Below are positions 12,131 to 27,673 of a stretch of 64,000 nt of DNA, piece after piece; within the stretch, counting starts at the first letter, position 1; every line of letters starts with the position of its first letter. The position numbers and the translations under genes are program-made. The notes under the pieces are model-generated. The model was not told where the DNA came from, ran no database searches, and saw nothing but the letters and a program-made list of their open reading frames with translations. The DNA is from Rhodococcus sp. ARC_M5. Lineage in GTDB: Bacteria; Actinomycetota; Actinomycetes; Mycobacteriales; Mycobacteriaceae. The stretch covers positions 1 to 64,000 of the forward strand of contig NZ_JALGQE010000022.1 of NCBI RefSeq assembly GCF_022810405.1, written 5' to 3'.

Positions 12131-12657
12131 CTACTCGGGAACATTCGATGCAGAGCTTCTTGCAGCAGCAGGGTGTCGAGCTTGTTCCGGTACATCTGGA
12201 CGAGTGCAGCAGATTCGGTCTCGAACTGCCGACGATGCCGGGCTGGGACGTGGTTCCCGAGCACCTGTTCCCGCATGCCACCGCGGTGCTGTGTTCGCCG
12301 GCGGACGCCGTCGACGGGTTCGTGCCGAATGCTCTGGCGCTGGTGGGGAAATTGACGCGATCGGTGGACCCGGTGTCGTTGCTGGAGTGCGGGTTCGGAG
12401 ATTCATGGACGTTGCCGGGTTGGGTCGAGGTCAGCCGCGATCGAGCATCGCTGCGCGGGCTACCGTCCGTCGCGATCGCCGGTCGGTACGACTGGGATGG
12501 GCATCTGCTCTTCGCGCGGACCCGCTACGTGGTTGTCCACCACATCGTCGATCAGTACCTCGTGCAGCTGACGGTCACTCTGCCCGATCCGAGCAGGACC
12601 CGATTGGGTTGGGCAGCAGACGAGTTCGTCGACGAGGTACGTATCGGTCGACGCTAG
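12127..12657 (+). CDS. LpqN/LpqT-like protein, no signal peptide
   Basis: A 176-residue protein matching the LpqN/LpqT family pattern: 'MPGWDVVPEHLFPHATAV', then 'PNALALVGKLT', 'LPGWVEVSRDRASLRG' and 'YLVQLTVTLPD'. Mycobacterial LpqN is a lipoprotein, but this copy lacks any signal or lipobox, so it is probably cytoplasmic. The GTG at 12127 overlaps the previous stop (GTGA), matching the coupling of all junctions in this operon; an ATG at 12148 is the alternative. The fold belongs to the Mog1/PsbP-like group, which includes effector chaperones, so a chaperone for the upstream protein is possible but unproven. Its stop overlaps that of the convergent MmgE/PrpD gene by 3 bp. Confidence 0.7.
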   Translation: MTTREHSMQSFLQQQGVELVPVHLDECSRFGLELPTMPGWDVVPEHLFPHATAVLCSPADAVDGFVPNALALVGKLTRSVDPVSLLECGFGDSWTLPGWVEVSRDRASLRGLPSVAIAGRYDWDGHLLFARTRYVVVHHIVDQYLVQLTVTLPDPSRTRLGWAADEFVDEVRIGRR

Positions 12658-13985
12658 CGAATCGGTAGTGCCCGCAACAGCGCTGCAACGTCCTCGGTAT
12701 CGCCGAGGGAGTCGACGATGTCCTCGATGACTGCGGTATCGGATTCGCCGACCAAGCGAGCGATCTTGGCGCGCACCGCACTGAAATTCATCGGGAAATG
12801 GTCGATGTCGCCCACCGGATTGGGGGCGGTCGCAGAAAGTGTGGTTCCGTCCCGAAATTCGATCGTCACTTCGGCGGCTCGGCGCTCCGGTAGCAGCGCG
12901 TCGAGCTCGGTCGATGTCGTGACGTCGACACGGTCGCTCAACGATTCGGCCGCGGAGAAGCCGGCACCTCGGGGATCCAGAGAATCGACGTCTATCTCGT
13001 CGGAAACCAAGGCAGCTGCCACCACGAACGGCAGCGAGAACATCGCACCCAGCCTGCTGGAGGGGTGCCGGCGAAACAGCGGTTCCGCCAGCGAATGTGT
13101 CCGTACCCGTACATGTTCGACGTCCTCTGCTGACCAGTCCGCACTCGCGCGCAGGCTCTGTACGGCGTCCACCGCGGCGTGCGTGTACGAGCAGCTGGCG
13201 TGTTGCTTCGTGTAGCCCTCCAACGTGAGCCAACGATCGCCGAGGTCCTCGGTCAGTCGGGCGGTGTTCAGCGTCCCTACCAGTGCGCCCAGGGTGTGTT
13301 CGATAGCCCCCGAGTTGTGCACTACCCCTGATCGAGCCAGCCTGGCCGCGTTCACGCCCGCGCGCGCGGCACCGCCGATCCACAGGTTTCGTGAGAAGTT
13401 TCCGTCGAGGACGACTGCCCATGGTGCCACTTGAACCAGCGCAGACGACGAGTCGATCGCCGCCGCGACCTCGTTCGCATCGGCGCCGCGAAGCAATGTC
13501 GCTGCCGTGGCAGCACCGGTAGCACCCCAGTGCCCATGGGTGTGCCAGGAACTGTGGCGGGTCAGTGCCCAGCCGAATCGGGCAGCAACCTCGTAGCCCG
13601 CCACGACGGCCGCCAAGAACTTCGAACCCGGGATCGGCGTCGGTGCCAGCCTGGCCGCAGCGATCGCCGCTGGAAGCACATGTGCGGCGGGATGTCCGGC
13701 GGCGTACTTGTTGCCCTCGTCCAGCTCGAGGCAACACGATGCGATGGCGTCGAGTTCGGCCGCCGTGTCGATGGTGGTGCCGACGCTTCCGCCTATCGGG
13801 TACGTCGATCCGGGCTCCGCATCCCACTCACGACGCACCGCGACCATCTCGGCGGTGCGGGAACCGGCGAGGGTGACACCCAGCAGATCGAACAGAATCA
13901 ACCGAATCCGGTCGTCGAGCGGTGCGGGCAGGGGCGCACTTGTGAGTTCGACCATCACTGTGGCCAAGGCGTCCACCGCAGGCAT
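12654..13985 (-). CDS. MmgE/PrpD family protein (first copy)
   Basis: A 443-residue protein of the 2-methylcitrate dehydratase/iron-independent aconitase-like family, with 'LILFDLLGVTLAG' at the N-terminus, 'LDEGNKYAAGHPAAHVLPAA' (PrpD active-site region), 'HTHGHWGATGAA' and 'KQHASCSYTHAAVDA'. Family enzymes hydrate or dehydrate small di- or tricarboxylates; some are decarboxylases. The frame has ATGs at 14057, 14021 and 13985. I prefer 13985 because a 17-bp palindrome related to the IclR-type sites (13988-14004) lies just in front of it; 14021 remains possible. It is transcribed away from the cyclase gene. Confidence 0.85.
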   Translation of the reverse strand: MPAVDALATVMVELTSAPLPAPLDDRIRLILFDLLGVTLAGSRTAEMVAVRREWDAEPGSTYPIGGSVGTTIDTAAELDAIASCCLELDEGNKYAAGHPAAHVLPAAIAAARLAPTPIPGSKFLAAVVAGYEVAARFGWALTRHSSWHTHGHWGATGAATAATLLRGADANEVAAAIDSSSALVQVAPWAVVLDGNFSRNLWIGGAARAGVNAARLARSGVVHNSGAIEHTLGALVGTLNTARLTEDLGDRWLTLEGYTKQHASCSYTHAAVDAVQSLRASADWSAEDVEHVRVRTHSLAEPLFRRHPSSRLGAMFSLPFVVAAALVSDEIDVDSLDPRGAGFSAAESLSDRVDVTTSTELDALLPERRAAEVTIEFRDGTTLSATAPNPVGDIDHFPMNFSAVRAKIARLVGESDTAVIEDIVDSLGDTEDVAALLRALPIR

Positions 13986-13987
13986 AT

Positions 13988-14004
13988 GTTCCGTTGAGCG
14001 AAAC
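13988..14004. promoter_or_regulatory. candidate IclR operator, site A
   Basis: The 17-mer GTTCCG-N5-CGAAAC sits directly before the chosen start of the first MmgE/PrpD gene. Read on the minus strand it matches sites C and D at the distant end of the cluster (G-x-T-x-CGC-x-CA-x-CGGAAC). Confidence 0.55.
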
Positions 14005-14129
14005 GCTGAAGAACCGTTCATCCGTGGACTGTAGAAGGCCGAAAAAGAAAGAGTCAATGATCGAGACGTACGACTAGGGGACTGCTACGCTCGGCTTGCC
14101 GCTGGAACGGCTTCTTGCGGGCCGTAAGC

Positions 14130-14146
14130 GTTTCGGCTAGCGAAAC
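14130..14146. promoter_or_regulatory. candidate IclR operator, site B
   Basis: A perfect inverted repeat GTTTCG-N5-CGAAAC lies 54 bp before the cyclase start and between the divergent MmgE/PrpD and cyclase genes. The half-sites and 5-bp spacing match sites A and C. Confidence 0.6.
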
Positions 14147-14200
14147 AATATTTACGCTGGTGCGAGTTGCGCGCGCAGCGTCTAACGAGGAGAAGAAGCA

Positions 14201-15013
14201 ATGTCCGATCCACTTCTTCGTGCCGTCCAGGGGGGCGTGCATGCAGTCGATCTCGGTAGGCAGCTCAGGGTCGGCATGCCGCAGTCGCCGAATCATCCGC
14301 AGTTCTGGCACACGTTGCCGCGCCGGCACGGTGATATGACACGTGCGGATGGCGGCAGCGCCGCGAACGACATGATCACCACCGGAACACATGTGGGCAC
14401 CCATATCGACGCCCTTGCTCACGTCAGCCAGGACGGAAAGTTGCACGGCGGGGCCGATGCCGGTCAGTCGTGCCTGGGCGGCAAATACGTCGAACACGGC
14501 GTACACACCATCGAACCCATGATCCGCCGTGGTGTGCTGCTCGACATCCCGAGACTCCTCGGTGTCGGTCGTTGCGAGGGTGGATACGAGATCACCGTCG
14601 ACGATCTGCAATCGGCCTGCGCTGCAGAGAAAATCGAGATCGAACGAGGCGATGTCGTGTTGATCCGCAGCGGCTGGGGGCAGTTGTTCGCTGAGGGGCT
14701 GCCCTACGTCGGTGGTCCGTCCGGAGTTCCTGGGGTCGGAGAAGCGGGCGCGCAGTGGCTGGCGGACAAGGGTGTCCACGCTGCGGGTGCGGACACGATC
14801 GCGTTCGAGCGGCTCGCCCCCGGTGGCGGACATGCGCTGCTACCCGCGCACCGAGTTCTGCTGGTGGAGAGCGGGATCTACATCATCGAAGCGCTGGACC
14901 TCGAAGAGCTCTCCCAGCAGGAATTGTTCGAGTTCACGTTCGTTCTCGTTCCGCTCAACATCTTCGGTGCAACGGGTTCGCCGGTCCGGCCGCTGGCGGT
15001 GACGTCCGCATGA
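14201..15013 (+). CDS. cyclase family protein (kynurenine formamidase/isatin hydrolase fold)
   Basis: A 270-residue metal-dependent hydrolase of the Cyclase superfamily (PF04199). The metal motif HxGTHxDxxxH is intact: H64, H68, D70 and H74. 'GDVVLIRSGWG' and 'RVLLVESGIYIIEALDLEEL' are further family marks. Characterised members open cyclic amides (isatin hydrolase) or cleave N-formyl amides (kynurenine formamidase). A GAGGAG site is eight bases from the ATG. The stop overlaps the next ATG (ATGA), linking it to the second MmgE/PrpD. In context it is likely a hydrolase of the pathway served by the cluster. Confidence 0.88.
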   Translation: MSDPLLRAVQGGVHAVDLGRQLRVGMPQSPNHPQFWHTLPRRHGDMTRADGGSAANDMITTGTHVGTHIDALAHVSQDGKLHGGADAGQSCLGGKYVEHGVHTIEPMIRRGVLLDIPRLLGVGRCEGGYEITVDDLQSACAAEKIEIERGDVVLIRSGWGQLFAEGLPYVGGPSGVPGVGEAGAQWLADKGVHAAGADTIAFERLAPGGGHALLPAHRVLLVESGIYIIEALDLEELSQQELFEFTFVLVPLNIFGATGSPVRPLAVTSA

Positions 15014-16437
15014 CCGAACGCACACTCGCGCAGCACCTGGCGCATTTCGCCGCAACCACCCGCTATCCGGATCTGCCCGACGCCGTGGTCGCATCCGTGG
15101 GGATGCGGGTGCTCGATACGCTCGGGATCGCGGTGGCGGCCACCGACCTGGAGACGAGCAAGGCCGCGACCGCATGGGCCCGTGAACAAGGCGGGGCAGC
15201 AACGGCATCCGCGATCGGCCTCGACATTGCCCTTCCTCCCGCGTTGGCCGCGTTCGTCAACGGAGTGCTCGCACACTCACTGGACTTCGACGACACACAT
15301 CTCCCGTCGATCCTGCACCCGAGCGCCAGTGTCGTGCCCGCGGCTCTCGCAGCCGCTCAGGAGCATGGAGCCGACGGCCGAGAGCTCGTGCGCGGCATCG
15401 CCATCGGCCTCGAAGTCTGTGTGCGCATCGGTATGGCGGGATTCGACCCGGCCACCAAGAACTCGGTGTTCTTCGAGCACGGTCAGCACGCGACGTCCAT
15501 CTGCGGTGCGATGGGAAGCGCCGTGGCCGCCGCTGTCATCGGTGGTGCGTCCGAGGAGCAGATCGTCGACACGATGGGTATTGCCGCGTCGATGGCGTCG
15601 GGCATCATCGAGGCCAACCGCACCGGAGGCACCGTCAAGCGCATGCACTGCGGTTGGGCGGCGCACTCCGCGCTCTCCGCGGCAGGGCTTGCGCGACACG
15701 GGATCACGGGGCCGCCGACGGTCCTCGAAGGACGGTTCGGCTTCTTCCAGGCCTGGCTGCACGAGCCTGGCCGAGCCAACGAGATTCTGGACGGACTCGG
15801 CACCGAGTGGGCCGTTCCCGGAATCTTCTTCAAGCCGTATCCCGCCAATCACTTCACCCATGCCGCAATCGACGCAGGAGCAGCCCTGCGGGCGAGGGGA
15901 GTCCGGCCGGAGCAGATCGAGAAGCTCGAGCTCGGGGTGCCCGCGGCAAATCTGCGGACCATCGGCGAACCCATCGATGTCAAACGCACGCCCGAGACCG
16001 GTTACATGGCGCAGTTCAGCGGCCCGTACGCCGTGGTCGTCGGCCTGCTGGGTGGGGGCGGACTCGGTGCGGCACTGGAGGACTACACCGACGAGTTGGC
16101 GAAGTCGGCGGATCGACGGGCCCTGATGGCCAAGGTCGACGTCGTACCGGATCCGAAGTGCGACGCCATCTTCCCGCATCAGTTCCCAGCGGTGCTGACC
16201 GCAACACTGAGCGACGGAACAGTGCTGGTCGAAGAGGTACTCACCACGCGTGGCGGACCCGAACGATCACTGTCCTTCGACGAGGTCTCGACCAAGTTCA
16301 CCAGCAACGCACGGCCGTTCCTCACCGAAGTCGAGCTGAAGGAACTTGCCGGTCGATGCGATCGACTCGGAGACCTGACCGACATCGGAGCACTGCTTGC
16401 GCCGTTGACCGATCTGAAATCGACCACGCAGCAATAG
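15010..16437 (+). CDS. MmgE/PrpD family protein (second copy)
   Basis: A 475-residue member of the MmgE/PrpD family, distinct from the first copy: N-terminal 'VGMRVLDTLGIAVAAT', then 'VNGVLAHSLDFDDTHLPSILHPSASVVPAA' read as the family signature with the D-D-T-H motif, 'KRMHCGWAAHSALSAA' and 'KPYPANHFTHAAIDA'. It has the DDTHxxxxxHPSxxVxPA active-site block that the first copy carries only in altered form (L-D-E-G-N-K-Y). It is translationally coupled to the cyclase gene. The probable reaction is hydration/dehydration of a carboxylic acid intermediate. Confidence 0.88.
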   Translation: MTERTLAQHLAHFAATTRYPDLPDAVVASVGMRVLDTLGIAVAATDLETSKAATAWAREQGGAATASAIGLDIALPPALAAFVNGVLAHSLDFDDTHLPSILHPSASVVPAALAAAQEHGADGRELVRGIAIGLEVCVRIGMAGFDPATKNSVFFEHGQHATSICGAMGSAVAAAVIGGASEEQIVDTMGIAASMASGIIEANRTGGTVKRMHCGWAAHSALSAAGLARHGITGPPTVLEGRFGFFQAWLHEPGRANEILDGLGTEWAVPGIFFKPYPANHFTHAAIDAGAALRARGVRPEQIEKLELGVPAANLRTIGEPIDVKRTPETGYMAQFSGPYAVVVGLLGGGGLGAALEDYTDELAKSADRRALMAKVDVVPDPKCDAIFPHQFPAVLTATLSDGTVLVEEVLTTRGGPERSLSFDEVSTKFTSNARPFLTEVELKELAGRCDRLGDLTDIGALLAPLTDLKSTTQQ

Positions 16438-16443
16438 GACAGT

Positions 16444-16494: not shown

Positions 16495-17322
16495 TCAGGC
16501 CCGTCCGAGAATCTCCCGCGCGCCCCGGACCACTGCCTCGTCGACGAACCGTCCGTTGTCGTCGACGGTCGGTCCGCCCTGCGAATCCGCGTAGAGCTGT
16601 ACCAGTCGACGTGCTGTATCGACATCGTCCACCGACGGCGTGAGCGCTGCATTGATGATCGGAACCTGACGGGGGTGCAACGCAGTCCGGGCTCGGAATC
16701 CCATCTGCACGAAACGTTCTGTGGTGCCGACGAAACCGTCCAGGTCCCGAAAATCGGTGGACGTCGGTGCAATAGGTGCCGCCAGTCCCGCAGCAGCACA
16801 ATCGATCACGACGTTCAGGCGAACAGCGTCGATCATCGGCTCGGTGGCCGCCGAACGGGTGATCCGTAGATCGGCGAGCAGGTCGACCTCACCGATCCCG
16901 AAGGTTCGTACTCTGTTGCATCGAGCCATTTCCGGCAGGGCGCGCAGCGAGTGCGCGGTCTCGATGAGGCCGATGAGTTCGACCTCGCCCAGATTGTGCT
17001 GGGTGAGCAATCGGTCTGCACGCGTGAGTGACTCGACCGAACACTTCGCCACCATGATGCCGGTGACTCCGCCCTCGGCGACGGCCTCGAGGTCTTGCAT
17101 CATGAATTCGGGGGTGACGCGGATCCAGATCTGGGTATCGGTCGACGGCTCCGAGGCCAACCATCGCGTGAGGGCGGCACGCGCCCGGTCCTTCTCCGGC
17201 AGTGGAACCGCATCCTCCAGGTCGATGATCACAGCGTCGGCGGCACCGCCCGCGGCCTTGTCGAACAATTCGGGCTTGTTCGCCGGTACGTAGAGGAACG
17301 ACCGGGCGGAGGTGGGGTTCAT
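16495..17322 (-). CDS. HpcH/HpaI-family CitE-like lyase
   Basis: A 275-residue TIM-barrel protein of the citrate lyase beta/malyl-CoA lyase family. Landmarks are 'RSFLYVPANKPELFDKA', the metal motif D34-L-E36-D37, R68 ('IWIRV'), E121 ('GLIETAHSL') and 'FGIGEVDLLADL'. Such enzymes split (3S)-malyl-, citramalyl- or related 3-hydroxyacyl-CoA thioesters to acetyl-CoA or a homologue and a 2-oxoacid. With a CoA-transferase at 26483 the combination would activate and cleave a hydroxyacid. It overlaps the iclR gene (ATGA, 17319-17322) and follows it in the transcript. Confidence 0.88.
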   Translation of the reverse strand: MNPTSARSFLYVPANKPELFDKAAGGAADAVIIDLEDAVPLPEKDRARAALTRWLASEPSTDTQIWIRVTPEFMMQDLEAVAEGGVTGIMVAKCSVESLTRADRLLTQHNLGEVELIGLIETAHSLRALPEMARCNRVRTFGIGEVDLLADLRITRSAATEPMIDAVRLNVVIDCAAAGLAAPIAPTSTDFRDLDGFVGTTERFVQMGFRARTALHPRQVPIINAALTPSVDDVDTARRLVQLYADSQGGPTVDDNGRFVDEAVVRGAREILGRA

Positions 17323-18107
17323 CGAGCTGCACGCGCTTCCAGGATGGTGGTGATGGACTGGGCCGCCGCGACAACTTGGCCGGCGTGAACGATGTGTTCG
17401 TCGTCTGCGGACGATGAGTAGCGGAAGGCGGGGCCGGAGGAGCTGACCGAACCGAGCACGTGCCCTGCGGCGTCGAAGAACGGCGCGGCGATCGAGGCTG
17501 CACCGGTGTTTCGCTCGTTCGTCGAGGTTGCGTATCCGTTGGTGCGGATCTCGGCGAGGCGAGCGCGAAAGCGGGTCTCGTCGGCGTCCGGAGAATTGCT
17601 GCGCAGTTCCTGAAAGGCCTCCTCCGCGAACCGATCGGGGAGGAACGCCAGGATCGCTCGGCTCGATGCGCCCGAGTGCAACGCGTACTGAGGTCCGATC
17701 TCGACGACCATCTTCACCTCCTGAGGGCTCTCGTACTGATCGAGATAGACGCGTCGGTGGCCGACAAGCACCGAGAGCGTTGCGGTTTCGCGTGTGTTCG
17801 CCCGCAGCGCGCGAAGCACCGGAGCCGCGATGGACCGGACGTCGAGCTGGCTCCACGCCTTTGTACCGAGTCCGATGGCCGCCGGGCCGAGTGAATACGT
17901 CGACTCGCCCGCCACCGGCTGCACGATCGATCGTGATGCCAGCGATTGCAGAATGCGGTGCACCACAGCCTTGCTCAGGTCCAGTGTGCGGGCGATCTCG
18001 GACACGCCGAGCGCTCGATCGGATTGGGCGAAGGCGATGAGCACATCGGCAACTCGATCGGCCGACTCTGTGCCCGTCGACGTCTCCAGTACAGGCCTGT
18101 TGACCAT
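17319..18107 (-). CDS. IclR family transcriptional regulator
   Basis: A 262-residue IclR-type regulator. The N-terminal winged helix-turn-helix is 'VSEIARTLDLSKAVVHRILQ' (about residues 36-55). The C-terminal effector domain (about 80-250) includes 'LYLDQ'-type and 'ALHSGASSRAILAFL' segments, and 'GYATSTNERNTGAASIAAPFF', which forms part of the ligand pocket in the family. AAAGGTG precedes the ATG at 18107. It is divergent from the ABC importer, and palindromes C and D lie between them, so autoregulation with control of the importer is likely. The ligand is unknown. Confidence 0.9.
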   Translation of the reverse strand: MVNRPVLETSTGTESADRVADVLIAFAQSDRALGVSEIARTLDLSKAVVHRILQSLASRSIVQPVAGESTYSLGPAAIGLGTKAWSQLDVRSIAAPVLRALRANTRETATLSVLVGHRRVYLDQYESPQEVKMVVEIGPQYALHSGASSRAILAFLPDRFAEEAFQELRSNSPDADETRFRARLAEIRTNGYATSTNERNTGAASIAAPFFDAAGHVLGSVSSSGPAFRYSSSADDEHIVHAGQVVAAAQSITTILEARAAR

Positions 18108-18133
18108 AAGTGCACCTTTCGGGATACGCGGCC

Positions 18134-18150
18134 GTTCCGCTGGGCGAACC
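18134..18150. promoter_or_regulatory. candidate IclR operator, site C
   Basis: GTTCCG-N5-CGAACC, 27 bp before the iclR start. Its reverse complement shares GnTnCGCnCAnCGGAAC with sites A and D. Confidence 0.6.
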
Positions 18151-18241
18151 ATACCCGTAACAAGAAATTGACGGAAGAGCCTGTTCTGAGGCCGTGATGC
18201 GTGCCATACTCGAATCCAGCGAGATCAATCATCAATCTGAT

Positions 18242-18280
18242 GGTGCGCTCAGCGGAACGGTTGGTTCCGCCCAGTGGTTC
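18242..18280. promoter_or_regulatory. candidate tandem IclR operators, site D and degenerate copy
   Basis: GGTGCGCTCAGCGGAAC (18242-18258) matches site C at 13 or more of 17 positions in the same alignment. A second, looser copy (18264-18280) follows in direct contact. They lie 38-76 bp before the ABC importer start, where an activator or repressor of that operon would bind. Confidence 0.5.
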
Positions 18281-18317
18281 GACTCGGCGCCGATGGGCGC
18301 GGAAGGCAGATTCGACA

Positions 18318-19538
18318 ATGAAGAAGCTCGTAGGTGTGCTGACAGCCGTTGCAGTCGTGGGTGCGGCAGCATGTGGCTCCTCCACCGGTTCGGACGACTC
18401 CGGACCCATCAAGATCGGATCGGTTCACCCCACCACCGGAGCTCTGGCAGGTGTGGGCGGGCTGATGAACGACGGTGCGGCACTTGCCGTGGCCGATATC
18501 AATGCAGCCGGCGGCATTTCGTCCATGGACGGTCGGCAGTTGGAATTGGTGTCGGGCGACAGTCAGGGCAAAGCAGAGGTCGGACAGAGTGAGGCGCAGC
18601 GACTGATCGACGAGGGCGCGGTATCGCTCATCGGCACGTACCAGAGTGATGTCACGCAGAACGTCGCCTCGGTCGCCGAGCGATCCCGGGTGCCGCTCGT
18701 GATCGATGTGGCGGTGGACGACAAGATCCTCGACCAGGGATACCAATACTCCTTCCGCATGCAGCCGAATGCTTCCAGCATGGGAACCGATGGTGCCAAG
18801 GCCCTCGCCGCGATCGAGGAGCAGACCGGCCAGCCCATCGACCGCGTCTCCTACCTGCACATCGAAGGGTCCTTCGGCGACAGTGTCTTCGACGCATTCG
18901 AATCCGAGGCTGCGAACCAGGGAATCTCGTCGGTACAGGAAATCACCTACCCGGCAACCAATTTCTCCGACGCCACCACGCAGGTGCGTGAGGCCGCAGT
19001 GTCCAATCCCGACGTCATCGTCGCCACCGGCTACTACCCGGACGGACTGCTCATCGCACGCGCGGTGCAGCAGCTGAACTTGAACGTCAAGGGTGTCTAC
19101 GGAATTGCCAACGGCGCGTTCGACGACAGCTCGTTCCCCGGTGACGCAGGGGCCGCAGGCGACGGCGTGCTGAGCGCCAACTACCACTACGACGCCACCA
19201 GCGACCGCGTCACCGATATCCGCTCGCGGTTCGAGGCCGAATACGGGCGTCCCATGGAAACCGCGGCAATGCTGTCCTACCAGGCGGTAGAGGTCATCGC
19301 GGCGGGGCTGAACGACGGAGCATCGAGTGATCCGGAAGATCTGCGCGACGCCATCTCCGGTGTCTCGATCGAGGATCCGCTGCTCGCCTTCAGCGGACCG
19401 ATCGAGTTCGACGAAACCGGCCAGAACAAGAACGCCACCGTCATCGTCATGCAGGTTCGCGACGGAGCAGTCGCCCAGGTGTTCCCCGAGGAATTCGCCA
19501 CGGACGCAATCGAGTTCCCCGTAGGAGCCGGCCAGTGA
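18318..19538 (+). CDS. livJ: ABC transporter substrate-binding lipoprotein, Liv type
   Basis: A 406-residue type I periplasmic-binding protein of the leucine/isoleucine/valine-amide-urea family. An N-terminal signal ends in the lipobox 'VVGAAAC', so it is anchored to the outer face of the membrane. The mature part starts 'GPIKIGSVHPTTGALAGVG', the ligand-binding loop of the family, followed by 'INAAGGISSMDGRQLELV'. The first ATG with good fit is 18318; the frame reaching 18201 crosses the operator region. Five transporter genes follow with overlaps (GTGA, ATGA). Ligands of such systems range from amino acids to aromatic acids; the ligand here is not known. Confidence 0.9.
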   Translation: MKKLVGVLTAVAVVGAAACGSSTGSDDSGPIKIGSVHPTTGALAGVGGLMNDGAALAVADINAAGGISSMDGRQLELVSGDSQGKAEVGQSEAQRLIDEGAVSLIGTYQSDVTQNVASVAERSRVPLVIDVAVDDKILDQGYQYSFRMQPNASSMGTDGAKALAAIEEQTGQPIDRVSYLHIEGSFGDSVFDAFESEAANQGISSVQEITYPATNFSDATTQVREAAVSNPDVIVATGYYPDGLLIARAVQQLNLNVKGVYGIANGAFDDSSFPGDAGAAGDGVLSANYHYDATSDRVTDIRSRFEAEYGRPMETAAMLSYQAVEVIAAGLNDGASSDPEDLRDAISGVSIEDPLLAFSGPIEFDETGQNKNATVIVMQVRDGAVAQVFPEEFATDAIEFPVGAGQ

Positions 19539-20524: not shown

Positions 20525-21564
20525 CAACGACAGCTGCTGCACCCAGCGCGGTGCACGACGACCCACGACTGAAAGACACCTGGCTCCGTCGCCAGTTGAT
20601 CACGCTCGCAATCGGATTCGTCGTGGTGGCGGCATTGCCACTGATTCTCGGTGAGCAGGCGCAGACGGTCGCCGTCCGCACCCTGATCTTCGCGCTGATG
20701 GCCGTGGCGTGGAACATCATGAGTGGTTTCGGCGGGATGTTCAGTTTCGGCCACGCCGCCTTCTTCGGAATCGGTGCGTACACCGGCGCGTATCTTCTGG
20801 TCGACCACGGTATATCGCCGTGGATCTCGATGATCATCGCGGCGACTCTCTCGGCCGTGGTGGGAACGCTCATCGCTTATCTGTGCCTGCGCTACCGGCT
20901 CGCCGGGTCCTACTTCGCGTTGGCCACGTTCGCTTTTGCGCAGATGTTCCTGCTGCTGGTGCAGAACCTGGAGGTGTTCAACAAGACCGAGGGCTTCAAT
21001 GTACCCATCCTGCCGCGTGATTCGTGGTGGATGCTGCAGTTCGAGAAGGGCAGCCCCAACTACGTCTGGATCCCGCTGGTCATCCTGACCCTCGCGGTTC
21101 TCGGCACCATCTTCTACACCCGTTCCCGAGCAGGGCAATTCGTCCAGGCCACCCGCGACGACGAAACTGCCGCAGCCTCGCTCGGTATCGACACGATGAA
21201 GTATCGGTTGATCGCCGTTGCTGCGAGTTGTGCGCTGACCGCCGTCGCCGGCGTCTACTACACGCAGTACTACTTCTTCGTGGGCCCGGAACAGGCCTTC
21301 GGTTCGGCCGTTTCCGTCGAAGCGATCGTGCCGGCCGTCATCGGCGGCATCGGAACGATCTGGGGGCCGGTCATCGGTGCAGCCGTGATCGGGCCGTTGT
21401 CGGAGTTGATCAATCAACTGCTGAGAAACCCACCTGCCTTCCTCGAATTCCTGCAAGGGACAATTGGATTGGACGTTGCCGCGTACTCGGTGATTCTGAT
21501 TGCGATCGTGATCTTCCTGCCCAAGGGAATCTTCGGGACGATCCGTGAGAGGTGGAACCGATGA
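20521..21564 (+). CDS. livM: branched-chain-type ABC permease, LivM-like
   Basis: A 347-residue permease. 'GFGGMFSFGHAAFFGIGAY' (the LivM-type N-terminal motif) and the coupling loop 'QATRDDETAAASLGIDTMKY' are present, with about ten helices. The ATG at 20521 overlaps the livH stop (ATGA); the longer frame to 20074 is antisense-like reading within livH and is rejected. Its stop overlaps the next ATG. Confidence 0.92.
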   Translation: MTTTAAAPSAVHDDPRLKDTWLRRQLITLAIGFVVVAALPLILGEQAQTVAVRTLIFALMAVAWNIMSGFGGMFSFGHAAFFGIGAYTGAYLLVDHGISPWISMIIAATLSAVVGTLIAYLCLRYRLAGSYFALATFAFAQMFLLLVQNLEVFNKTEGFNVPILPRDSWWMLQFEKGSPNYVWIPLVILTLAVLGTIFYTRSRAGQFVQATRDDETAAASLGIDTMKYRLIAVAASCALTAVAGVYYTQYYFFVGPEQAFGSAVSVEAIVPAVIGGIGTIWGPVIGAAVIGPLSELINQLLRNPPAFLEFLQGTIGLDVAAYSVILIAIVIFLPKGIFGTIRERWNR

Positions 21565-22283
21565 GTTTGTTGACCATCGAGAACCTGAGCAAGTCCTTCT
21601 CTGGCATCCACGCGGTGCGCGAGGTCAGCCTCGATGTACCCGAGCACGAATTCCTCGGCATCATCGGTCCCAACGGGGCAGGAAAGACGACCCTGTTCTC
21701 CCTGCTGTCGGGTGAGCAGCCCCCGACAGCAGGCCGAGTGATCTTCGACGGAACGGACATCACCGGATGGCCTGCGAGCAAGATCGCGCGCGCCGGGCTG
21801 GTGCGGACGTTCCAGTTGATGCGCCCCTTCGACTCGATGTCGGTGCTCGAGAACGTCACCATCGCCGCATTGTCGAAGCGCAAGTCGCGTAAGGATGCCC
21901 GGCGGCATGCCCTCGAAGTTCTGGACCGCGTCCAGCTGTCCGACCAGGTCGGCGGCAAGGTCTCGACCATGTCGACGGCAGGCCTCAAACGACTCGAACT
22001 CGCGCGCGCACTGGCCATGGAACCGCGCGTGGTACTCCTCGACGAGGTACTCGCCGGGCTCGTTCCAGCCGAGCGGGCACCGATGATCGAACTGCTGCGC
22101 ACGGTGCATCAGCAAGGTCAGACGGTGATGTTCGTCGAGCACATCATGGCGGCGGTGATGGCCCTGTCCGAGCGTCTGGTGGTCATGCACGAGGGTGCAG
22201 TGCTCACCTCGGGCGACCCACGCACGGTCGTTGCCGACGACCGCGTCGTCGAGGCATACCTCGGAGAGGAGAAGACTGCATGA
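21561..22283 (+). CDS. livG: ABC transporter ATPase, LivG-like
   Basis: A 240-residue ATPase. Walker A 'GPNGAGKTTLF' is near residue 38; the signature helix reads 'STMSTAGLKRLELARAL', with M-S-T-A-G replacing the usual L-S-x-G-x, and Walker B is 'PRVVLLDEVLAGL', where V replaces the usual P after DE. The H-loop is 'MFVEHIM'. These match the LivG subgroup, which differs from canonical ABC ATPases in the same places. Coupled by ATGA to both neighbours. Confidence 0.9.
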   Translation: MSLLTIENLSKSFSGIHAVREVSLDVPEHEFLGIIGPNGAGKTTLFSLLSGEQPPTAGRVIFDGTDITGWPASKIARAGLVRTFQLMRPFDSMSVLENVTIAALSKRKSRKDARRHALEVLDRVQLSDQVGGKVSTMSTAGLKRLELARALAMEPRVVLLDEVLAGLVPAERAPMIELLRTVHQQGQTVMFVEHIMAAVMALSERLVVMHEGAVLTSGDPRTVVADDRVVEAYLGEEKTA

Positions 22284-22984
22284 TGCTCGAAATCGACAAC
22301 CTGCACGCCGGATACCGTCGGCTCGAGATCCTGCACGGGTTGACCCTGTCGGTCGACCGGCACGAGATCGTCTCCCTGATCGGCGCGAACGGTGCGGGCA
22401 AGACGACAACGCTGCGTGCGCTGTCCGGCCTGGTGTCCACGTCCGGCGGCAGAATCATGTTGGACGGCACTGCAATCCATGGGATGCGCGCGGACCGGAT
22501 CGTGCGAGCCGGGCTGGTGCACGTCGCCCAGGATCGGGCTTTGTTCGGCAGCCTCACCGTGGCCGACAACCTGGAGATGGGCGCATACACCCAGAAACGC
22601 AGCGGCGTGAAGGAATCACTCGACCAGGTCTACGCCCTGTTCCCGATTCTCGCCGAACGACGAGAACAGCGGGCCGACACGATGTCCGGCGGTCAACAGC
22701 AGATGCTCGCCATCGGGCGCGCCATGATGTCGAAGCCGCGGGTACTGACACTCGACGAACCGTCCGTCGGACTCGCTCCCAAGCTGGCAGCTCAAGTCCT
22801 CGACGCGATCGTACGTATCCGTGATTCGGGTGTGACCGTGCTGATCGTCGAACAGAACGCCGCGCAGGCACTCGCCATCTCCGATCGGGCATACGTCATC
22901 GAAAGCGGGTCGATCGTGCTGACCGGCACCGGACCCGAACTGGCACACGACGAGCGAGTCAAAGCTGCCTACCTCGGCATTTAG
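22280..22984 (+). CDS. livF: ABC transporter ATPase, LivF-like
   Basis: A 234-residue ATPase, last of the importer genes. Walker A 'GANGAGKTTTLRAL', signature 'DTMSGGQQQMLAIGRAM', Walker B 'PRVLTLDEPSVGL' and the 'IVEQNAAQAL' H-loop region (Q where most ATPases have H, as normal in LivF) are all visible. Two ATGs (22280, 22283) are possible; the first overlaps the livG stop. Thirteen bases separate it from the racemase-family gene, so the catabolic genes are in the same transcript. Confidence 0.92.
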   Translation: MMLEIDNLHAGYRRLEILHGLTLSVDRHEIVSLIGANGAGKTTTLRALSGLVSTSGGRIMLDGTAIHGMRADRIVRAGLVHVAQDRALFGSLTVADNLEMGAYTQKRSGVKESLDQVYALFPILAERREQRADTMSGGQQQMLAIGRAMMSKPRVLTLDEPSVGLAPKLAAQVLDAIVRIRDSGVTVLIVEQNAAQALAISDRAYVIESGSIVLTGTGPELAHDERVKAAYLGI

Positions 22985-22997: not shown

Positions 22998-23630
22998 ATG
23001 CACCTCTTGGCTTTCACCCCGATCGACGTCGACGCGGCAGAACTGCGGCGCCGGCAGGATCGGTACGATCACCTTTCACCCGCGGGGATCACCGTCGAGC
23101 TCCGCAACATCGGGCCCGATGCGCCGAGCGCACTGGATACCGAACTCGACGTCAGACGGTCGGAAGACGTGCTGTCGCAGGTCTTCCACTCCGTGCGCGA
23201 CACGCACGCCGACGGGTTCCTGCCCGACTGCGTGCTCGACCCCTGTGCCGAGGAAGCGGATTCGTTCGCGCGGCCGCTCTACGGCCTCACGCGGCTGACG
23301 GCGTCGTTCTATGCCTCCCAGGGACATCGGATCGGTGCGTTGGCGAGGAACGACGCCATCGCCGCAGAACTGGACCGCCGACTCGGGTTCTACGGGATAG
23401 TCGCCGAGGCCACCGAGGTGCTCGGGCTCGGTGTGCACGACATCGTAGACGCCGGAGCCTGGGGTAGAGCGGTCTCGGAACACGCGCGCAAACTCCGGTG
23501 CACCATCGCCGTCAATGCCTGCTCTGCAGTCGATCTCGTCGATCCACCGACGTCACCACAGGTCGTCGATCCGACGGCTACGGCGCTGCGGCTGCTGGGT
23601 CTGCGTTCCGATCTGCAGGTCCCCGCATGA
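22998..23630 (+). CDS. Asp/Glu/hydantoin racemase superfamily protein
   Basis: A 210-residue protein of the Asp/Glu racemase-like superfamily, which also covers hydantoin racemase, maleate isomerase and arylmalonate decarboxylase. The two catalytic cysteines of the superfamily appear as C74/C79 ('LPDCVLDPCAEEA', either could serve) and C175 ('IAVNACSAVDL'). The N-terminus is 'LLAFTPIDVDAAELRRRQ', odd for the family, which usually starts with a short 'I-x-x-I-N-P' strand. Its exact reaction cannot be read; between an importer and an amidohydrolase, isomerisation or racemisation of a ring-opened intermediate fits. Its stop overlaps the following ATG. Confidence 0.75.
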   Translation: MHLLAFTPIDVDAAELRRRQDRYDHLSPAGITVELRNIGPDAPSALDTELDVRRSEDVLSQVFHSVRDTHADGFLPDCVLDPCAEEADSFARPLYGLTRLTASFYASQGHRIGALARNDAIAAELDRRLGFYGIVAEATEVLGLGVHDIVDAGAWGRAVSEHARKLRCTIAVNACSAVDLVDPPTSPQVVDPTATALRLLGLRSDLQVPA

Positions 23631-25000
23631 GCGAGGACGGCCCCGACCTGGTGGTGGCAGGCGCGGGCGGCGGACTCGTTGCTGCTCTGCGTGCGGCCCA
23701 GCTCGGGCTCGACGTGCTTGTGGTCGAGGCCAGCACGCACTTCAAGCGGGGCAACAACACGGCAATGTCCACGGCCATGATCCCCGGTGCCGGTTCACGG
23801 TGGCAGCGGGAGGCCGGAATCGAGGATTCGCCGCAGCAGTTTCTGGACGATGTCTTGCGCAAAACGAAGGGTAGTGCCGATCTTCGGCTGGCGTCCACCC
23901 TGGCCGATGTCAGTGCGCCGCTGGTGGAATGGCTCGCAGATCACGTCGAGCTGCCGCTCACGCTCGTCACCGATTTCGCGTACCCGGGTCACTCGCAATT
24001 GCGTTGCCACACAGTCGAAGGCCGCCACGGCAGCGCGATGCTCGAGCACCTCGCCCGAGCGGTCGCGGACGAGCCGCGGATCGACATGTTGACTCCCGCC
24101 CGCCTGACCGACGTGTCCGTCGACACCGCCGGGGCTGTCGACGGGGTGAGCATCACGATGCCCGACGGTAGCGTCGATGTCGTTCCCACCCGCGCAGTTC
24201 TGTTGGCCACCAACGGTTACGGTGCCAATACGGACATGGTGGCACAGTACGTGCCGGAGATATCCGCGGCGCGCTATCACGGCAGTGAGCACTCCAACGG
24301 GGATGCGCTGGCCATCGGACGTCGTCTCGGTGCCGACTCGGCATACCTCGATGCCTACCAGGGGCACGCGGCACTGTCGAAGCAGGCGACGACGCTCGTC
24401 GGATGGGCGACGGTGATGCACGGCGGCGTCGTGCTCGACTCGACCGGTCGCCGGTTCGGTGACGAGACGACCGGCTACTCCGAATACGCGGCCACTCTGG
24501 CCGCCAGGCCCGGCTCCGAGGGCTGGGTTGTCATCGACCGCGAGATCTACGACAAGTGTTTGTCGTTCAAAGACTTCCAGCAGACGGTCGAGTCGGGTGC
24601 TGCAATATGGGCCGACGATGCGGAGAGTCTTGCTGCCGCTACCGGGCTTCCACCTGCCACAGTGGCGGAGGAACTCGCCGCTGTGGAAAGCTATGCGCGG
24701 GGAGAGGCGTCGGATCCGTTCGGCCGCAACTCTTTCGAGCACACGCTTGCCGGGCCGTACGCCGCCATCAAGATCGTGCCCGCGTTGTTCCACACCCAGG
24801 GTGGGCTCGTCGTGGACGAGAACGCACGTGTTCTCCGCACCGACGGTTCCGCCATCACCGGTCTGTTCGCCTCGGGCGGTGCCGCGATGGGCATCTCCGG
24901 CCACGGTGCGGCCGGGTATCTGGCAGGCAACGGATTGCTCCCTGCTCTCGGACTCGCTTACCTCGCGGCAAGCTCACTCCGATCAACTGCACTCTTGTGA
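23627..25000 (+). CDS. FAD-dependent oxidoreductase, fumarate reductase/KstD-like
   Basis: A 457-residue flavoprotein of the FAD_binding_2 family. The dinucleotide motif is 'DLVVAGAGGGLVAALRAAQLG', residues 7-27 in part, followed by an acidic strand end 'VVEAS'. 'VLLATNGYGAN' and the C-terminal 'TQGGLVVDENARVLRTDGSAITGLFASGGAA' with 'GISGHGAAGYLAGNGL' are typical of flavoprotein fumarate reductase, 3-ketosteroid dehydrogenase and tricarballylate dehydrogenase. It probably removes or adds hydrogen at a C-C bond next to a carboxyl or carbonyl. ATGA coupling with the racemase-family gene. Confidence 0.85.
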   Translation: MSEDGPDLVVAGAGGGLVAALRAAQLGLDVLVVEASTHFKRGNNTAMSTAMIPGAGSRWQREAGIEDSPQQFLDDVLRKTKGSADLRLASTLADVSAPLVEWLADHVELPLTLVTDFAYPGHSQLRCHTVEGRHGSAMLEHLARAVADEPRIDMLTPARLTDVSVDTAGAVDGVSITMPDGSVDVVPTRAVLLATNGYGANTDMVAQYVPEISAARYHGSEHSNGDALAIGRRLGADSAYLDAYQGHAALSKQATTLVGWATVMHGGVVLDSTGRRFGDETTGYSEYAATLAARPGSEGWVVIDREIYDKCLSFKDFQQTVESGAAIWADDAESLAAATGLPPATVAEELAAVESYARGEASDPFGRNSFEHTLAGPYAAIKIVPALFHTQGGLVVDENARVLRTDGSAITGLFASGGAAMGISGHGAAGYLAGNGLLPALGLAYLAASSLRSTALL

Positions 25001-25019
25001 AAAAATCGAAAGGACAACC

Positions 25020-26486
25020 ATGTCAACGCTCTTGATCACCAATGCCCGCGTAGTTCGTGCAGGATCCGATGCCCCCGACGAGGGCGAATTTCTGGACCTG
25101 CTCATCGAGGACGGCAAGTTCACCCGAATCGAAGCGAACATCGATGCCTCCGCGGCGGACACCGTCGTCGACGCAGCAGGCAAGATCGCGTTTCCCGGCG
25201 TCGTCGATGCGCACCAGCACTGGGGTATCTACAACTCGCTCGGTGAGGATGCCGAGACCGAGTCGCGGGCGTGCGTGCAGGGCGGCGTGACCACGTCGTT
25301 GTCCTACATGCGGACCGGCCAGTACTACATGAACACCGGCGGTTCCTACGCTGATGTGTTCCCCAAGGTCCTCGAGGCCACCGAGGGACGCCCCTACGTC
25401 GATTACGCGTACCACCTCGCGCCGATGTCGAAGGAACACATCGACGAAATCCCCTCGCTCATCGCCGACCACGGCGTCACGTCGTTCAAGATCTTCATGT
25501 TCTACGGTAGCCACGGGCTCCACGGCCGGTCCACCGATCAGAGCGAGTTCCTCATGACGCCCGAGGGGGAGCGCTACGACTTGGCGCACTTCGAGTTCGT
25601 CATGCGCGGCATCCAGGCTGCCCGTGAGCAGATGGGCGACAAGGCCGATCACATCTCGCTGTCGCTGCACTGCGAGACCGCCGAGATCATGAGCGCGTAC
25701 ACCAAGATCGTCGAGGAGGAGGGCACCCTCGAGGGCCTCGCCGCATACAGCGCGTCGCGGCCACCGCATTCCGAGGGCCTCGCAGTCACCATTGCGTCGT
25801 TCCTCGCAGACGAGACGCAGCTGCCCAACATCAACTTGCTGCACCTGTCGTCGCGCAAGGCGCTGACCGCGGCGATGCGGATGGCAAAGGCGTTCCCACA
25901 CGTCAACTTCCGCCGCGAGGTCACGATCGGCCACCTGCTGGCCGATATCGACACCGCCTACGGACTCGGTGGCAAGGTCAACCCGCCGTTGCGTCCGCGT
26001 GACGACGTCGAAGCGCTGTGGGAGCACCTGCTCGCAGGCGACATCGACTGGGTCGTCAGCGATCACGCGTGCTGCAAGGACGAGAAGAAGTTCGCCGAGG
26101 ATCGCGGCGACATCTTCGCCGCGAAGTCCGGCTTCGGCGGTGCCGAATACCTGCTCCCAGGACTGGTCAGCGAAGGACGCAAGCGCGGCCTGAGCTGGCG
26201 TCGCATCGCCGAGCTCACGTCACTGAACCCGGCCCGACGCTACGGGCTGCCGGGCAAGGGAGACATCGCCGTCGGCATGGACGCAGACGTCGCTCTGATC
26301 GACCCCGATCACACCTGGACCGTCCGGCCGGAGGATTCCGAGTCGGCGCAGGAGTACACACCGTTCGAGGGATTCGAGCTCGGTGCCAAGGTGACCGACA
26401 CGTTCGTCCGTGGTCAGCGGGTACTCGCCGACGGTGCCGTCGCCGGTGCGCCGGCAGGCCGCTACCTGCACCGTCCGTACCTGTGA
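25020..26486 (+). CDS. dihydropyrimidinase/hydantoinase-like amidohydrolase
   Basis: A 488-residue amidohydrolase of the cyclic-amidase group. The binuclear metal site is complete: H65 and H67 ('DAHQHWG'), the carboxylated lysine K157 ('TSFKIFMFY'), H217 ('LSLHCETA'), H275 ('NLLHLSSRKAL') and D348 ('VVSDHACC'). Hydantoinases, dihydropyrimidinases, allantoinases and imidases share this set. 'DAHQHWG' in place of 'DxHTHxxxP' and the Tyr/Met-rich 'SYMRTGQYYMN' loop set it apart, so a familiar substrate cannot be assumed. AAAGGA precedes the ATG by five bases. It is followed by the CoA-transferase with GTGA overlap. Confidence 0.85.
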   Translation: MSTLLITNARVVRAGSDAPDEGEFLDLLIEDGKFTRIEANIDASAADTVVDAAGKIAFPGVVDAHQHWGIYNSLGEDAETESRACVQGGVTTSLSYMRTGQYYMNTGGSYADVFPKVLEATEGRPYVDYAYHLAPMSKEHIDEIPSLIADHGVTSFKIFMFYGSHGLHGRSTDQSEFLMTPEGERYDLAHFEFVMRGIQAAREQMGDKADHISLSLHCETAEIMSAYTKIVEEEGTLEGLAAYSASRPPHSEGLAVTIASFLADETQLPNINLLHLSSRKALTAAMRMAKAFPHVNFRREVTIGHLLADIDTAYGLGGKVNPPLRPRDDVEALWEHLLAGDIDWVVSDHACCKDEKKFAEDRGDIFAAKSGFGGAEYLLPGLVSEGRKRGLSWRRIAELTSLNPARRYGLPGKGDIAVGMDADVALIDPDHTWTVRPEDSESAQEYTPFEGFELGAKVTDTFVRGQRVLADGAVAGAPAGRYLHRPYL

Positions 26487-27673
26487 CGGGCCCGCTCGAG
26501 GGCATCAGAGTTCTCGATATCTCGACGATCCTCGCCGGCCCTCTCGTTGCGCAGATCCTCGGCGATTTCGGGGCGGAGGTCATCAAGATCGAGCACCCCA
26601 CCAAGCCCGACGGTATGCGCGGACACGGTCTGGACAAGGACGGTCACCCGCTGTGGTGGACGATGATCGGTCGAAACAAGCGAACGATGACTCTCGACCT
26701 CGGAAATGCACAGGGCGGAGCACTCTTTCGTCGTCTCGCCGCCGAAGCCGATGTGGTGGTCGAGAACTTCCGGCCGGGAACCCTCGAACGCTGGGGGCTG
26801 GGATACGACGTGCTGTCCGAGCTGAATCCGGGTCTGATCCTGTTGCGTGTCACGGGCTTCGGTCAGACCGGGCCGTACGCCACCCGGCCGGCCTTCGGGA
26901 CGCTCGTCGAATCGATGAGTGGCTTTGCGCATCTGACCGGTGAAGCAGACGGACCGCCGACGCTTCCTGCGTTCGGACTGGCCGATTCCCTCGCCGGGAT
27001 CGCCGGCTCGTCGGCGGTGTCCATGGCCCTGCTGCACCGAACCAACAACGGCGGTCAGGGTCAGCAGATCGACCTCGATCTGTTGAGCCCGATCATGGCC
27101 GCGGTCGGGCCGGGCGTCATCTACGCCGACCAGTTGGGGATCGATCAGGAACGCACGGGCAATCGGTCGAGCAACAATGCGCCCCGCAACCTGTACAAGA
27201 CCGCGGACGGTCATTGGTTGGCGATCTCCACGAGCGCCAATTCGATCGCTGAGCGGGTGCTGGTCCTGGTGGGCCACCCCGAGGTGCTGGACGAACCATG
27301 GTTCGCCACCGGGCGTCAGCGCGCCGCCCACGCGGACCTGCTGGACGAGTACGTCGGCGGCTGGATCGGCGAGCGGACGAAAGACGTGGTGATCGACGAG
27401 TTCGAGAAGGCGGGCGCGGCAGTCGCTCCCGTCTACAAGCCGAGCGACCTGTTGTCCGATCCACAGGTCAACGCCATCGAGATGGTGACGACTGTCGAGG
27501 ACGACGACCTGGGTCCGGTGCGCATGCAGAACGTCATGTGGCGGATGGGTAGTAGCCCCGGAAGCATCAGATACACCGGACGCAAGCACGGTGCCGATAC
27601 CGATGAGGTGCTGACCGAAATCGGGTGCAGCGCCGACGAGATCGAGGCCATGCACCGCGACAGCATCGTGTAG
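26483..27673 (+). CDS. CaiB/BaiF family (class III) CoA-transferase
   Basis: A 396-residue class III CoA-transferase. The N-terminus 'GPLEGIRVLDISTILAGPLVAQILGDFGAEVIKIE' region (G-P-x-x-x-x-L-x-D-F-G-A-x-V-I-K-I-E) is diagnostic. The catalytic aspartate lies in 'AFGLADSLAGIAG' near residue 170, and 'GKWLAI'-like 'DGHWLAIS' follows. It would move CoA from a donor thioester to a carboxylate of the pathway, feeding the CitE-like lyase encoded upstream. It ends the operon; a terminator hairpin follows five bases downstream. Confidence 0.9.
   Translation: MTGPLEGIRVLDISTILAGPLVAQILGDFGAEVIKIEHPTKPDGMRGHGLDKDGHPLWWTMIGRNKRTMTLDLGNAQGGALFRRLAAEADVVVENFRPGTLERWGLGYDVLSELNPGLILLRVTGFGQTGPYATRPAFGTLVESMSGFAHLTGEADGPPTLPAFGLADSLAGIAGSSAVSMALLHRTNNGGQGQQIDLDLLSPIMAAVGPGVIYADQLGIDQERTGNRSSNNAPRNLYKTADGHWLAISTSANSIAERVLVLVGHPEVLDEPWFATGRQRAAHADLLDEYVGGWIGERTKDVVIDEFEKAGAAVAPVYKPSDLLSDPQVNAIEMVTTVEDDDLGPVRMQNVMWRMGSSPGSIRYTGRKHGADTDEVLTEIGCSADEIEAMHRDSIV

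Follow-up and report, generated by a model that had tools for sequence, protein, structure and literature searches.

According to excerpts of PMC9863593, cyclic amidohydrolases carry a two-metal site built from four histidines, one aspartate and one carboxylated lysine, and imidases are counted among these enzymes in the accessible parts of PMC9863593 and PMC4437985. The cyclase family PF04199 is marked by the motif H-x3-H-x-D-x3-H in the portions of PMC5341072 at hand. In the sections of PMC5592240 that were available, class III CoA-transferases take malate, citramalate and mesaconate, with direct activation of malate and citramalate. Members of these three families are encoded together at positions 12654-27673 of the 64,000-nucleotide stretch of Rhodococcus sp. 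ARC_M5 analysed here (contig NZ_JALGQE010000022.1, positions 1 to 64,000, called the window; 64.4% GC). The 14 genes of this cluster form four transcription units. They make up a genuine catabolic unit that is conserved and unusual in its enzymes, and a single regulator probably controls it. We read it as an IclR-controlled catabolic regulon that degrades a small organic acid containing a ring, with a carboxylated cyclic amide or imide as the most likely substrate, and give this reading a probability of about one half. Gene content, linkage, co-occurrence, a shared palindrome and conserved metal and catalytic residues were computed. The cluster has the following features.

12654..13985, minus strand: prpD1, divergent MmgE/PrpD protein, accessory (Pfam MmgE_PrpD_N 98.7 bits, MmgE_PrpD_C 88.1 bits; family in 37 of 111 distinct loci)
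13986..14200: prpD1/cyc divergent promoter region (operator GTTCCGTTGAGCGAAAC at 13988; weaker copy with 4 mismatches at 14130)
14201..15013, plus strand: cyc (protein CYC), cyclase-family metal hydrolase, core (PF04199 102.7 bits)
15010..16437, plus strand: prpD2, MmgE/PrpD protein, core, probable hydratase/dehydratase (Pfam 204.4 and 111.4 bits)
16495..17322, minus strand: citE-like CoA-ester lyase gene, core (PF03328 93.8 bits; RipC/Ccl 168.7 bits, cut-off 375)
17319..18107, minus strand: iclR, regulator (IclR_C and HTH_IclR; in 88 of 111 distinct loci)
18108..18317: iclR/livJ divergent promoter region (operators at 18134-18150 with 3 mismatches and at 18242-18258 with 2 mismatches)
18318..19538, plus strand: livJ, importer substrate-binding protein (Peripla_BP_6 174.9 bits)
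19535..20524, plus strand: livH, permease (open reading frame (ORF) reading; same-order homologue in other Liv-type loci)
20521..21564, plus strand: livM, permease (ORF reading; same-order homologue in other Liv-type loci)
21561..22283, plus strand: livG, ATPase (ORF reading; same-order homologue in other Liv-type loci)
22280..22984, plus strand: livF, ATPase (ORF reading; same-order homologue in other Liv-type loci)
22998..23630, plus strand: rac, Asp/Glu/hydantoin racemase-family protein, accessory (PF01177 via homologues; C78 and C175)
23627..25000, plus strand: fad, FAD_binding_2 oxidoreductase without the fumarate-reductase arginines (PF00890 154.3 bits)
25020..26486, plus strand: hyd (protein HYD), cyclic amidohydrolase of the hydantoinase/allantoinase branch, marker gene of the module (allantoinase model 216.1 bits, cut-off 357.85)
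26483..27673, plus strand: caiB (protein CaiB), class III CoA-transferase, core (PF02515 367.6 bits)

The four units are prpD1 on the minus strand, cyc-prpD2 on the plus strand, iclR-citE on the minus strand and livJHMGF-rac-fad-hyd-caiB on the plus strand. Eight of the ten junctions within units are 4-bp overlaps, and the remaining two are gaps of 13 bp (livF-rac) and 19 bp (fad-hyd). Start codons are our choice, with prpD1 begun at 13985 over 14057 and iclR at 18107 over 18152. Ten of the 14 proteins were scanned against Pfam and NCBIfam, and livH, livM, livG and livF were assigned by reading the ORFs. For the ten scanned proteins, coordinates and families agree with those in an earlier note made from the sequence, and the Liv-type importer that this note called dedicated lies in the same operon as rac, fad, hyd and caiB.

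Orthologues of HYD (at least 45% identity) were present in 37 of the 298 genomes of the order, a count that includes the genome of the window. In the HYD search 38 genomes passed the E-value limit, and one of them (G005; our labels are G for genomes and L for loci) was excluded at 37% identity. PrpD2 was found in 38 of the 298 genomes (E ≤ 1e-100) and CYC in 40 (E ≤ 1e-55). Both were present in 36 of the 37 HYD genomes, and the exception, G054, is an assembly of 550 contigs in which the one with HYD is 6 kb long. PrpD2 occurred in 36 of 37 genomes with HYD versus 2 of 261 without it, and CYC in 36 of 37 versus 4 of 261; the Fisher values, 7e-43 and 9.5e-41, respectively, overstate the association because related genomes are not independent.

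The genes are also linked. At identity thresholds, 39 HYD loci contained cyc, prpD2, caiB, citE, iclR and fad in 34, 33, 34, 31, 29 and 21 cases, respectively. The same genomes supplied 20 control regions of 20 kb each, and in these no cluster gene reached the thresholds, which were chosen after viewing the locus comparisons. When the controls were searched without thresholds (E ≤ 1e-8, half of the query covered), prpD2 and prpD1 were each found in 1, livG in 3 and livF in 4 of the 20 regions, and the other genes in none. For pooled locus counts, operator counts and the adjacency of fad and hyd, 120 loci were reduced to 111 distinct loci by identical HYD. Duplicate genomes are still included in the residue-conservation alignments, the architecture comparisons and the operator scan that included the control regions. 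Genes in the fetched loci were called with our own script rather than a published gene finder.

Among the 111 distinct HYD loci, caiB was found in 103, citE in 89, iclR in 88, prpD2 in 81, cyc in 77, fad in 70, rac in 44, livJ in 37, prpD1 in 37 and a major facilitator superfamily (MFS) importer gene in 27; these counts are lower bounds because the loci are cut on both sides. The earlier note had proposed looking for all eight catabolic families together, and a single locus holds all of them in 14 of the 111 cases (again a lower bound). L041 also has all eight but belongs to a genome that was present twice, and its copy, the shorter one, was dropped; the window stands outside the 111. Conservation of only part of the linkage, which that note regarded as speaking against one pathway, applies to Liv, PrpD1 and the racemase, found in a subset of loci, and not to HYD, CYC, PrpD2, CaiB and CitE. 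These five are the core of the unit; importers, oxidoreductases and the pair of PrpD1 and racemase are variable.

The loci fall into several architectures. Window-type loci with Liv, PrpD1, racemase and the flavin adenine dinucleotide (FAD) enzyme occur, for example, in Micromonospora humi, Asanoa and Nonomuraea thailandensis. The second architecture combines an MFS importer with the FAD enzyme in Nocardia, Arthrobacter sp. YD4 and plasmid pDND3A of Rhodococcus gordoniae, and none of the 111 distinct loci has MFS and livJ together. In the third, CaiB-CYC-PrpD2-HYD-CitE is accompanied by differing upstream genes. The neighbourhood of some of these loci also contains an old yellow enzyme (OYE)-type protein, with a single family shared by five loci and confirmed by Pfam on L057, or another FAD_binding_2 protein, with a single family shared by three loci and confirmed on L119. 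Xanthine-dehydrogenase-type subunits stand beside the core in six loci, four of which also have the OYE-type protein (Pfam tests on L057 and L144). The labels A, B and C given to the types are imperfect on cut loci, as with L061, called B and of full Liv type with its flank fetched; G012 is of Liv type by reading its flank. The FAD gene directly adjoins hyd in 68 of the 70 distinct FAD-bearing loci, which suggests that the product of the flavoenzyme is the substrate of HYD or the reverse. Two Liv-type loci (L122 and L134) have no visible FAD gene.

When the divergent promoter regions at 13986-14200 and 18108-18317 were compared, a common 17-bp palindrome, GTTCCGCTNAGCGGAAC, emerged, which is newly found here. 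With three mismatches allowed, the window contains three copies, each within one of the two promoter regions, while 100 shuffles gave a mean of 0.42 and none reached three. Similar copies of the prpD1/cyc-region operators were found in the orthologous loci L032 and L033. At up to two mismatches there were 124 sites in 73 of the 111 distinct loci, and 111 of the 124 lie between 300 bases upstream and 60 bases inside of a cluster gene start. With 100 scrambled palindromes of the same composition, the means were 1.8 sites and 0.6 upstream sites (maxima 39 and 29, respectively), and the 20 control regions contained no copy of the palindrome at up to two mismatches. Pairs within 250 bases were observed in 36 of the 111 loci, most commonly spaced by 132 bases (11) or 108 bases (8). 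The 108-base spacing belongs to window-type Rhodococcus, and the 132-base spacing mainly to Nocardia (for example L095 and L097, in the iclR/fad gap), with Rhodococcus spongiicola L105 as well. Such constant spacing could point to looping or to dimers that bind in pairs.

The genome that contains the window has 40 distinct sites at up to three mismatches, compared with 23 for a reversed control, so that an individual site there is usually noise. At no more than one mismatch, 14 distinct sites were found in 10 of 36 HYD genomes and one with the reversed control. Eight of the 14 lie in fetched HYD loci and a ninth at the iclR/livJ promoter of G012, the same region; two are within coding sequence in two genomes of the same family, two are in G259 and one is in G231. 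The palindrome is likely the operator to which IclR would bind. The earlier note's claim of a single IclR regulator gains support from the same palindrome at both divergent promoters, and its view of one catabolic unit from linkage, the phylogenetic profile and this shared palindrome.

The enzymes were examined residue by residue. All six metal ligands of HYD (H65, H67, K157, H217, H275 and D348) are kept in at least 95% of 120 sequences, and these residues fit a predicted metal-dependent ring hydrolysis. HYD ranks with the most strongly conserved enzymes of the cluster, with 221 of 488 columns at 95% or more, compared with 127 of 396 for CaiB. The metal motif of CYC, H64-x3-H68-x-D70-x3-H74, is present in at least 95% of 84 sequences. 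Among solved structures, cis-aconitate decarboxylase and IDS epimerase are the best relatives of PrpD2. Two histidines and two lysines of PrpD2 align with positions of cis-aconitate decarboxylase that we take to be active-site residues, and in PrpD1 an arginine replaces one of these lysines. The equivalog model for 2-methylcitrate dehydratase PrpD gave 75.4 bits for PrpD2 (cut-off 950) and no match for PrpD1. D168 of CaiB, presumably the catalytic aspartate, is conserved in at least 95% of 112 sequences, and the best model for this protein is succinate-glutarate CoA-transferase (227.5 bits, cut-off 750).

In an alignment of the FAD enzyme with 1qo8 and 6t85, TTRD is replaced by TTGY and NRLGGNA by GYLAGNG. 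The missing arginines are assumed here to be the substrate-binding and catalytic acid residues of fumarate and urocanate reductases, while G283, Y284 and Y431 of the FAD enzyme are present in at least 95% of 76 relatives. A fumarate-like dicarboxylate is therefore an unlikely substrate, and fumarate-type or tricarballylate chemistry was rejected for this enzyme on the basis of the arginines absent in the alignment.

The Rac protein of the window alone matched no Pfam family; 31 of the 36 members of its alignment matched Asp_Glu_race (PF01177) at E ≤ 0.01, which bears out the racemase-family label of the earlier note. At least 95% of 48 sequences retain C78 and C175, which are presumably the catalytic pair of the Asp/Glu/hydantoin racemase superfamily. 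A racemase beside a hydantoinase is the classical hydantoinase partnership, and here such a protein shares an operon with a hydantoinase-like enzyme that matches the hydantoin-5-propionate amidohydrolase and allantoinase models, below cut-off. The substrate could thus be a 5-substituted hydantoin or dihydropyrimidine, racemised by Rac, opened by HYD and processed by CYC as a carbamoylase, after which the amino acid would be deaminated and cleaved. We consider this distinctly unlikely: the racemase is found in 44 of the 111 distinct HYD loci (a lower bound), none of the ten scanned cluster proteins belongs to a carbamoylase family, although CYC might take that step, and CoA-transferase and CitE would be superfluous for an amino acid. 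Since the racemase occurs in a subset of loci, isomerisation looks like an accessory rather than a backbone step.

For a carboxylated cyclic amide or imide, the following route is proposed. The Liv importer would take the substrate in, and the FAD enzyme would oxidise or reduce the ring at a position adjacent to a carbonyl. The two-metal centre of HYD would open the ring at the amide C-N bond, and CYC might carry out a second metal-dependent hydrolysis, of a half-amide or N-acyl group. PrpD2 would hydrate the resulting unsaturated di-acid to a substituted malate, the CoA-transferase would convert this to its CoA ester and CitE would split the ester, with an acyl-CoA and either glyoxylate or a 2-oxoacid as products, so that PrpD2, CaiB and CitE would be a triad for hydration, activation and cleavage. 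PrpD1 and the racemase may tune stereochemistry, move a double bond or supply the route with a second isomer. In the absence of inducer, IclR bound to the 17-bp palindromes at both divergent promoters would repress the four units together. We infer all these reactions, their order, the substrate, the mode of repression and the IclR-palindrome contact. The route in the earlier note (ring opening, isomerisation, redox step, hydration, CoA activation and cleavage) is plausible, with a step order and a cyclic amide or imide substrate that were likewise conjectural; its isomerisation and redox steps are the least secure.

Several observations weigh against this reading. At up to two mismatches, the palindrome is absent from 38 of the 111 distinct loci. 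G185 has CaiB-CitE-CYC-PrpD2 without HYD (L178 5347-16963), so that CYC and PrpD2 are not bound to HYD alone. In L179, L180, L181 and L182, relatives of CYC (48-51% identical) follow a pair of other genes whose sizes are alike in all four; the pair tested, that of L182, encodes an M20 amidohydrolase and an MFS metabolite symporter, with an AsnC-type regulator alongside. HYD itself falls below the curated equivalog cut-offs shown, with 216.1 bits of 357.85 for allantoinase, 185.7 of 393.25 for hydantoinase, 187.6 of 279.05 for dihydroorotase and 188.7 of 650 for hydantoin-propionate amidohydrolase, and its substrate may therefore lie outside the known set. C-C bond cleavage in cyclic diketones or lactones is also within the reach of cyclase-family enzymes, as reported in the parts of PMC10470551 and PMC5341072 that could be consulted. 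Finally, a tannase-family esterase is encoded right behind CaiB, with paired operators before it, in M. humi and Asanoa hainanensis. The tannase-family stretches are as follows.

L113 12772-14388 (A. hainanensis): tannase/feruloyl-esterase-family protein (PF07519 343 bits)
L041 2579-4204 and L125 12740-14365 (M. humi, same genome): tannase-family protein
L108 13161-13940 (Asanoa ishikariensis): tannase-family stretch of 260 residues, no operator before it

The tannase-family N-terminus is signal-like by our reading. The esterase may be a candidate regulon member that points to an ester-bound substrate, and together with the C-C and lactone precedents of the cyclase family it means that a nitrogen-free ring also fits. 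The ring could then be carbocyclic or a lactone derived from a plant polyphenol or alicyclic acid, opened by CYC, with HYD recruited to a different hydrolysis. The precedents for CYC would be the hydrolysis of dihydrophloroglucinol and trans-dienelactone (PMC10470551 and PMC5341072, both as excerpted). The best model for the MFS importer of other loci is the D-galactonate transporter subfamily (271.5 bits, cut-off 395), with weaker matches to aromatic-acid permeases, so an organic anion is likely to be carried, which speaks for this reading. However, HYD retains the full and strongly conserved two-metal site of a cyclic amidohydrolase, the 14 genes include no phloroglucinol-type reductase family, and the tannase-family protein is full length in two genomes only. 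We regard a nitrogen-free ring as rather unlikely.

The locus in G185 also bears on the possibility that two unrelated neighbouring pathways, Liv-rac-FAD-HYD-CaiB and CYC-PrpD2-CitE, have been taken for one. Trees without support values place the CYC-PrpD2(-CitE) block of the window closest to the third group and G012, and HYD and CaiB closest to other groups; blocks of different clades therefore appear to serve the same partners. Against two separate pathways, 36 of the 37 HYD genomes have both CYC and PrpD2, both promoters carry the same palindrome and the genes are linked in many rearranged orders. A block that is exchanged between lineages yet retained with HYD favours a shared function, and the two-pathway reading is disfavoured as very improbable.

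Neighbouring genes gave no single answer on the substrate, since they vary between architectures. In G185, the block is followed by genes for an acyl-CoA dehydrogenase, a second PrpD-like protein, an HMG-CoA-lyase-like protein, a second CoA-transferase and an enoyl-CoA hydratase, which makes PrpD, CoA-transferase and a C-C lyase a recurring triad. The upstream divergent gene there resembles 3-hydroxybenzoate 6-monooxygenase. On pDND3A (L071 1-9377), the adjoining second set is annotated as PrpD, CoA-transferase, MaoC, GntR, HyuA/HyuB (hydantoinase/oxoprolinase type) and amidase. A cyclic-amide opener and an amidase are thus again combined with PrpD and CoA-transferase, with unrelated ring openers, and this favours a cyclic amide or imide.

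A wider reading is put forward tentatively, as possible rather than probable: HYD, CYC, PrpD2, CaiB and CitE could be the lower part of a new actinobacterial funnel, in which several upstream modules deliver one cyclic imide or lactam acid and the core splits it to acyl-CoA and a 2-oxoacid without an oxygenase. No oxygenase family is found among the 14 cluster genes. The upstream modules would be Liv with PrpD1, racemase and FAD enzyme; MFS with FAD enzyme; a xanthine-dehydrogenase-type hydroxylase with an OYE-type enzyme; a thiamine pyrophosphate (TPP) enzyme with aldehyde dehydrogenase; M20 and alpha/beta hydrolases; and the tannase-like esterase. As a special case, which we hold to be extremely unlikely, the substrates would be maleimides from the decay of chlorophyll and haem, with hematinic acid yielding pyruvate and glutaryl-CoA; the best model of CaiB, though below its cut-off, is succinate-glutarate CoA-transferase.

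At least 580 stretches in genomes of named species encode a relative of HYD (E ≤ 1e-3), the weakest of which may be other amidohydrolases, and the best 80 of these come from more than twenty actinobacterial genera. A widespread nutrient is therefore probably involved, one unexplained by any pathway found. Among the matches listed, HYD of the window has its nearest named relatives, at 98% identity, in contigs of Rhodococcus. The palindrome offers a handle for defining the regulon across these genomes, and LivJ a direct route to the ligand.

Outside the cluster, a 5S rRNA gene lies at the very start of the window (7-123, plus strand; Rfam 102.5 bits), and ARAGORN found no tRNA within its 64 kb. 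Just downstream of the cluster, the ORF list contains a UvrA-type ABC ATPase-like ORF of 767 aa (28716-31019, minus strand), adjoined by a periplasmic-binding-protein-like ORF at 27714-28667.

The earlier note knew of no described pathway with this enzyme set, and we likewise found no published description among the open PubMed Central papers listed for the gene families, isonicotinate, enamidase, imides, maleimides and the cyclase family, a coverage that excludes subscription journals. Three routes were considered and rejected. Riboflavin/lumichrome catabolism was prompted by the TPP enzyme in some loci; PrpD, CoA-transferase and CitE are not named in the available part of PMC12746152. For ergothioneine use, HYD scored below the ErtD cut-offs, no search having been made for the other genes of that route. 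An isonicotinate/citrazinate route via a carboxylated glutarimide is chemically attractive, and the term citrazinic acid did not occur in the open papers found.

Compared with the known cyclic amidohydrolases, HYD belongs to the same family and has the six metal residues, but misses the curated cut-offs and has PrpD, CoA-transferase and CitE as partners. It differs from dihydroorotase in having HQHWGIY instead of HxHxR, which we take to be the dihydroorotase motif. CYC shares PF04199 and the metal motif with isatin hydrolase, kynurenine formamidase, dihydrophloroglucinol cyclohydrolase and trans-dienelactone hydrolase, although it misses the cut-off for kynurenine formamidase (arylformamidase; 36.1 of 223) and is only weakly similar to isatin hydrolase (E 5.8e-8). 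The FAD enzyme is of the same FAD_binding_2 family as fumarate and urocanate reductases and tricarballylate dehydrogenase, with many conserved stretches, but differs in the arginines and reaches 122.8 of 369 for tricarballylate dehydrogenase TcuA. The logic of CoA-transferase and CitE is shared with the itaconate, mesaconate and malate CoA routes, the best model of CitE being RipC. Unlike itaconate degradation (Ict-Ich-Ccl), the cluster misses the RipC cut-off and has MmgE/PrpD instead; none of the ten scanned proteins belongs to the itaconyl-/mesaconyl-CoA hydratase family. The anaerobic nicotinate route comprises a hydroxylase, a reductase, a ring amidohydrolase (enamidase) and a later C-C lyase, mostly of other enzyme families. 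The six loci with xanthine-dehydrogenase-type subunits, four of them with an OYE-type protein, resemble it, whereas the 14 cluster genes include no hydroxylase. The gene set appears to encode an undescribed breakdown of a small ring-shaped organic acid.

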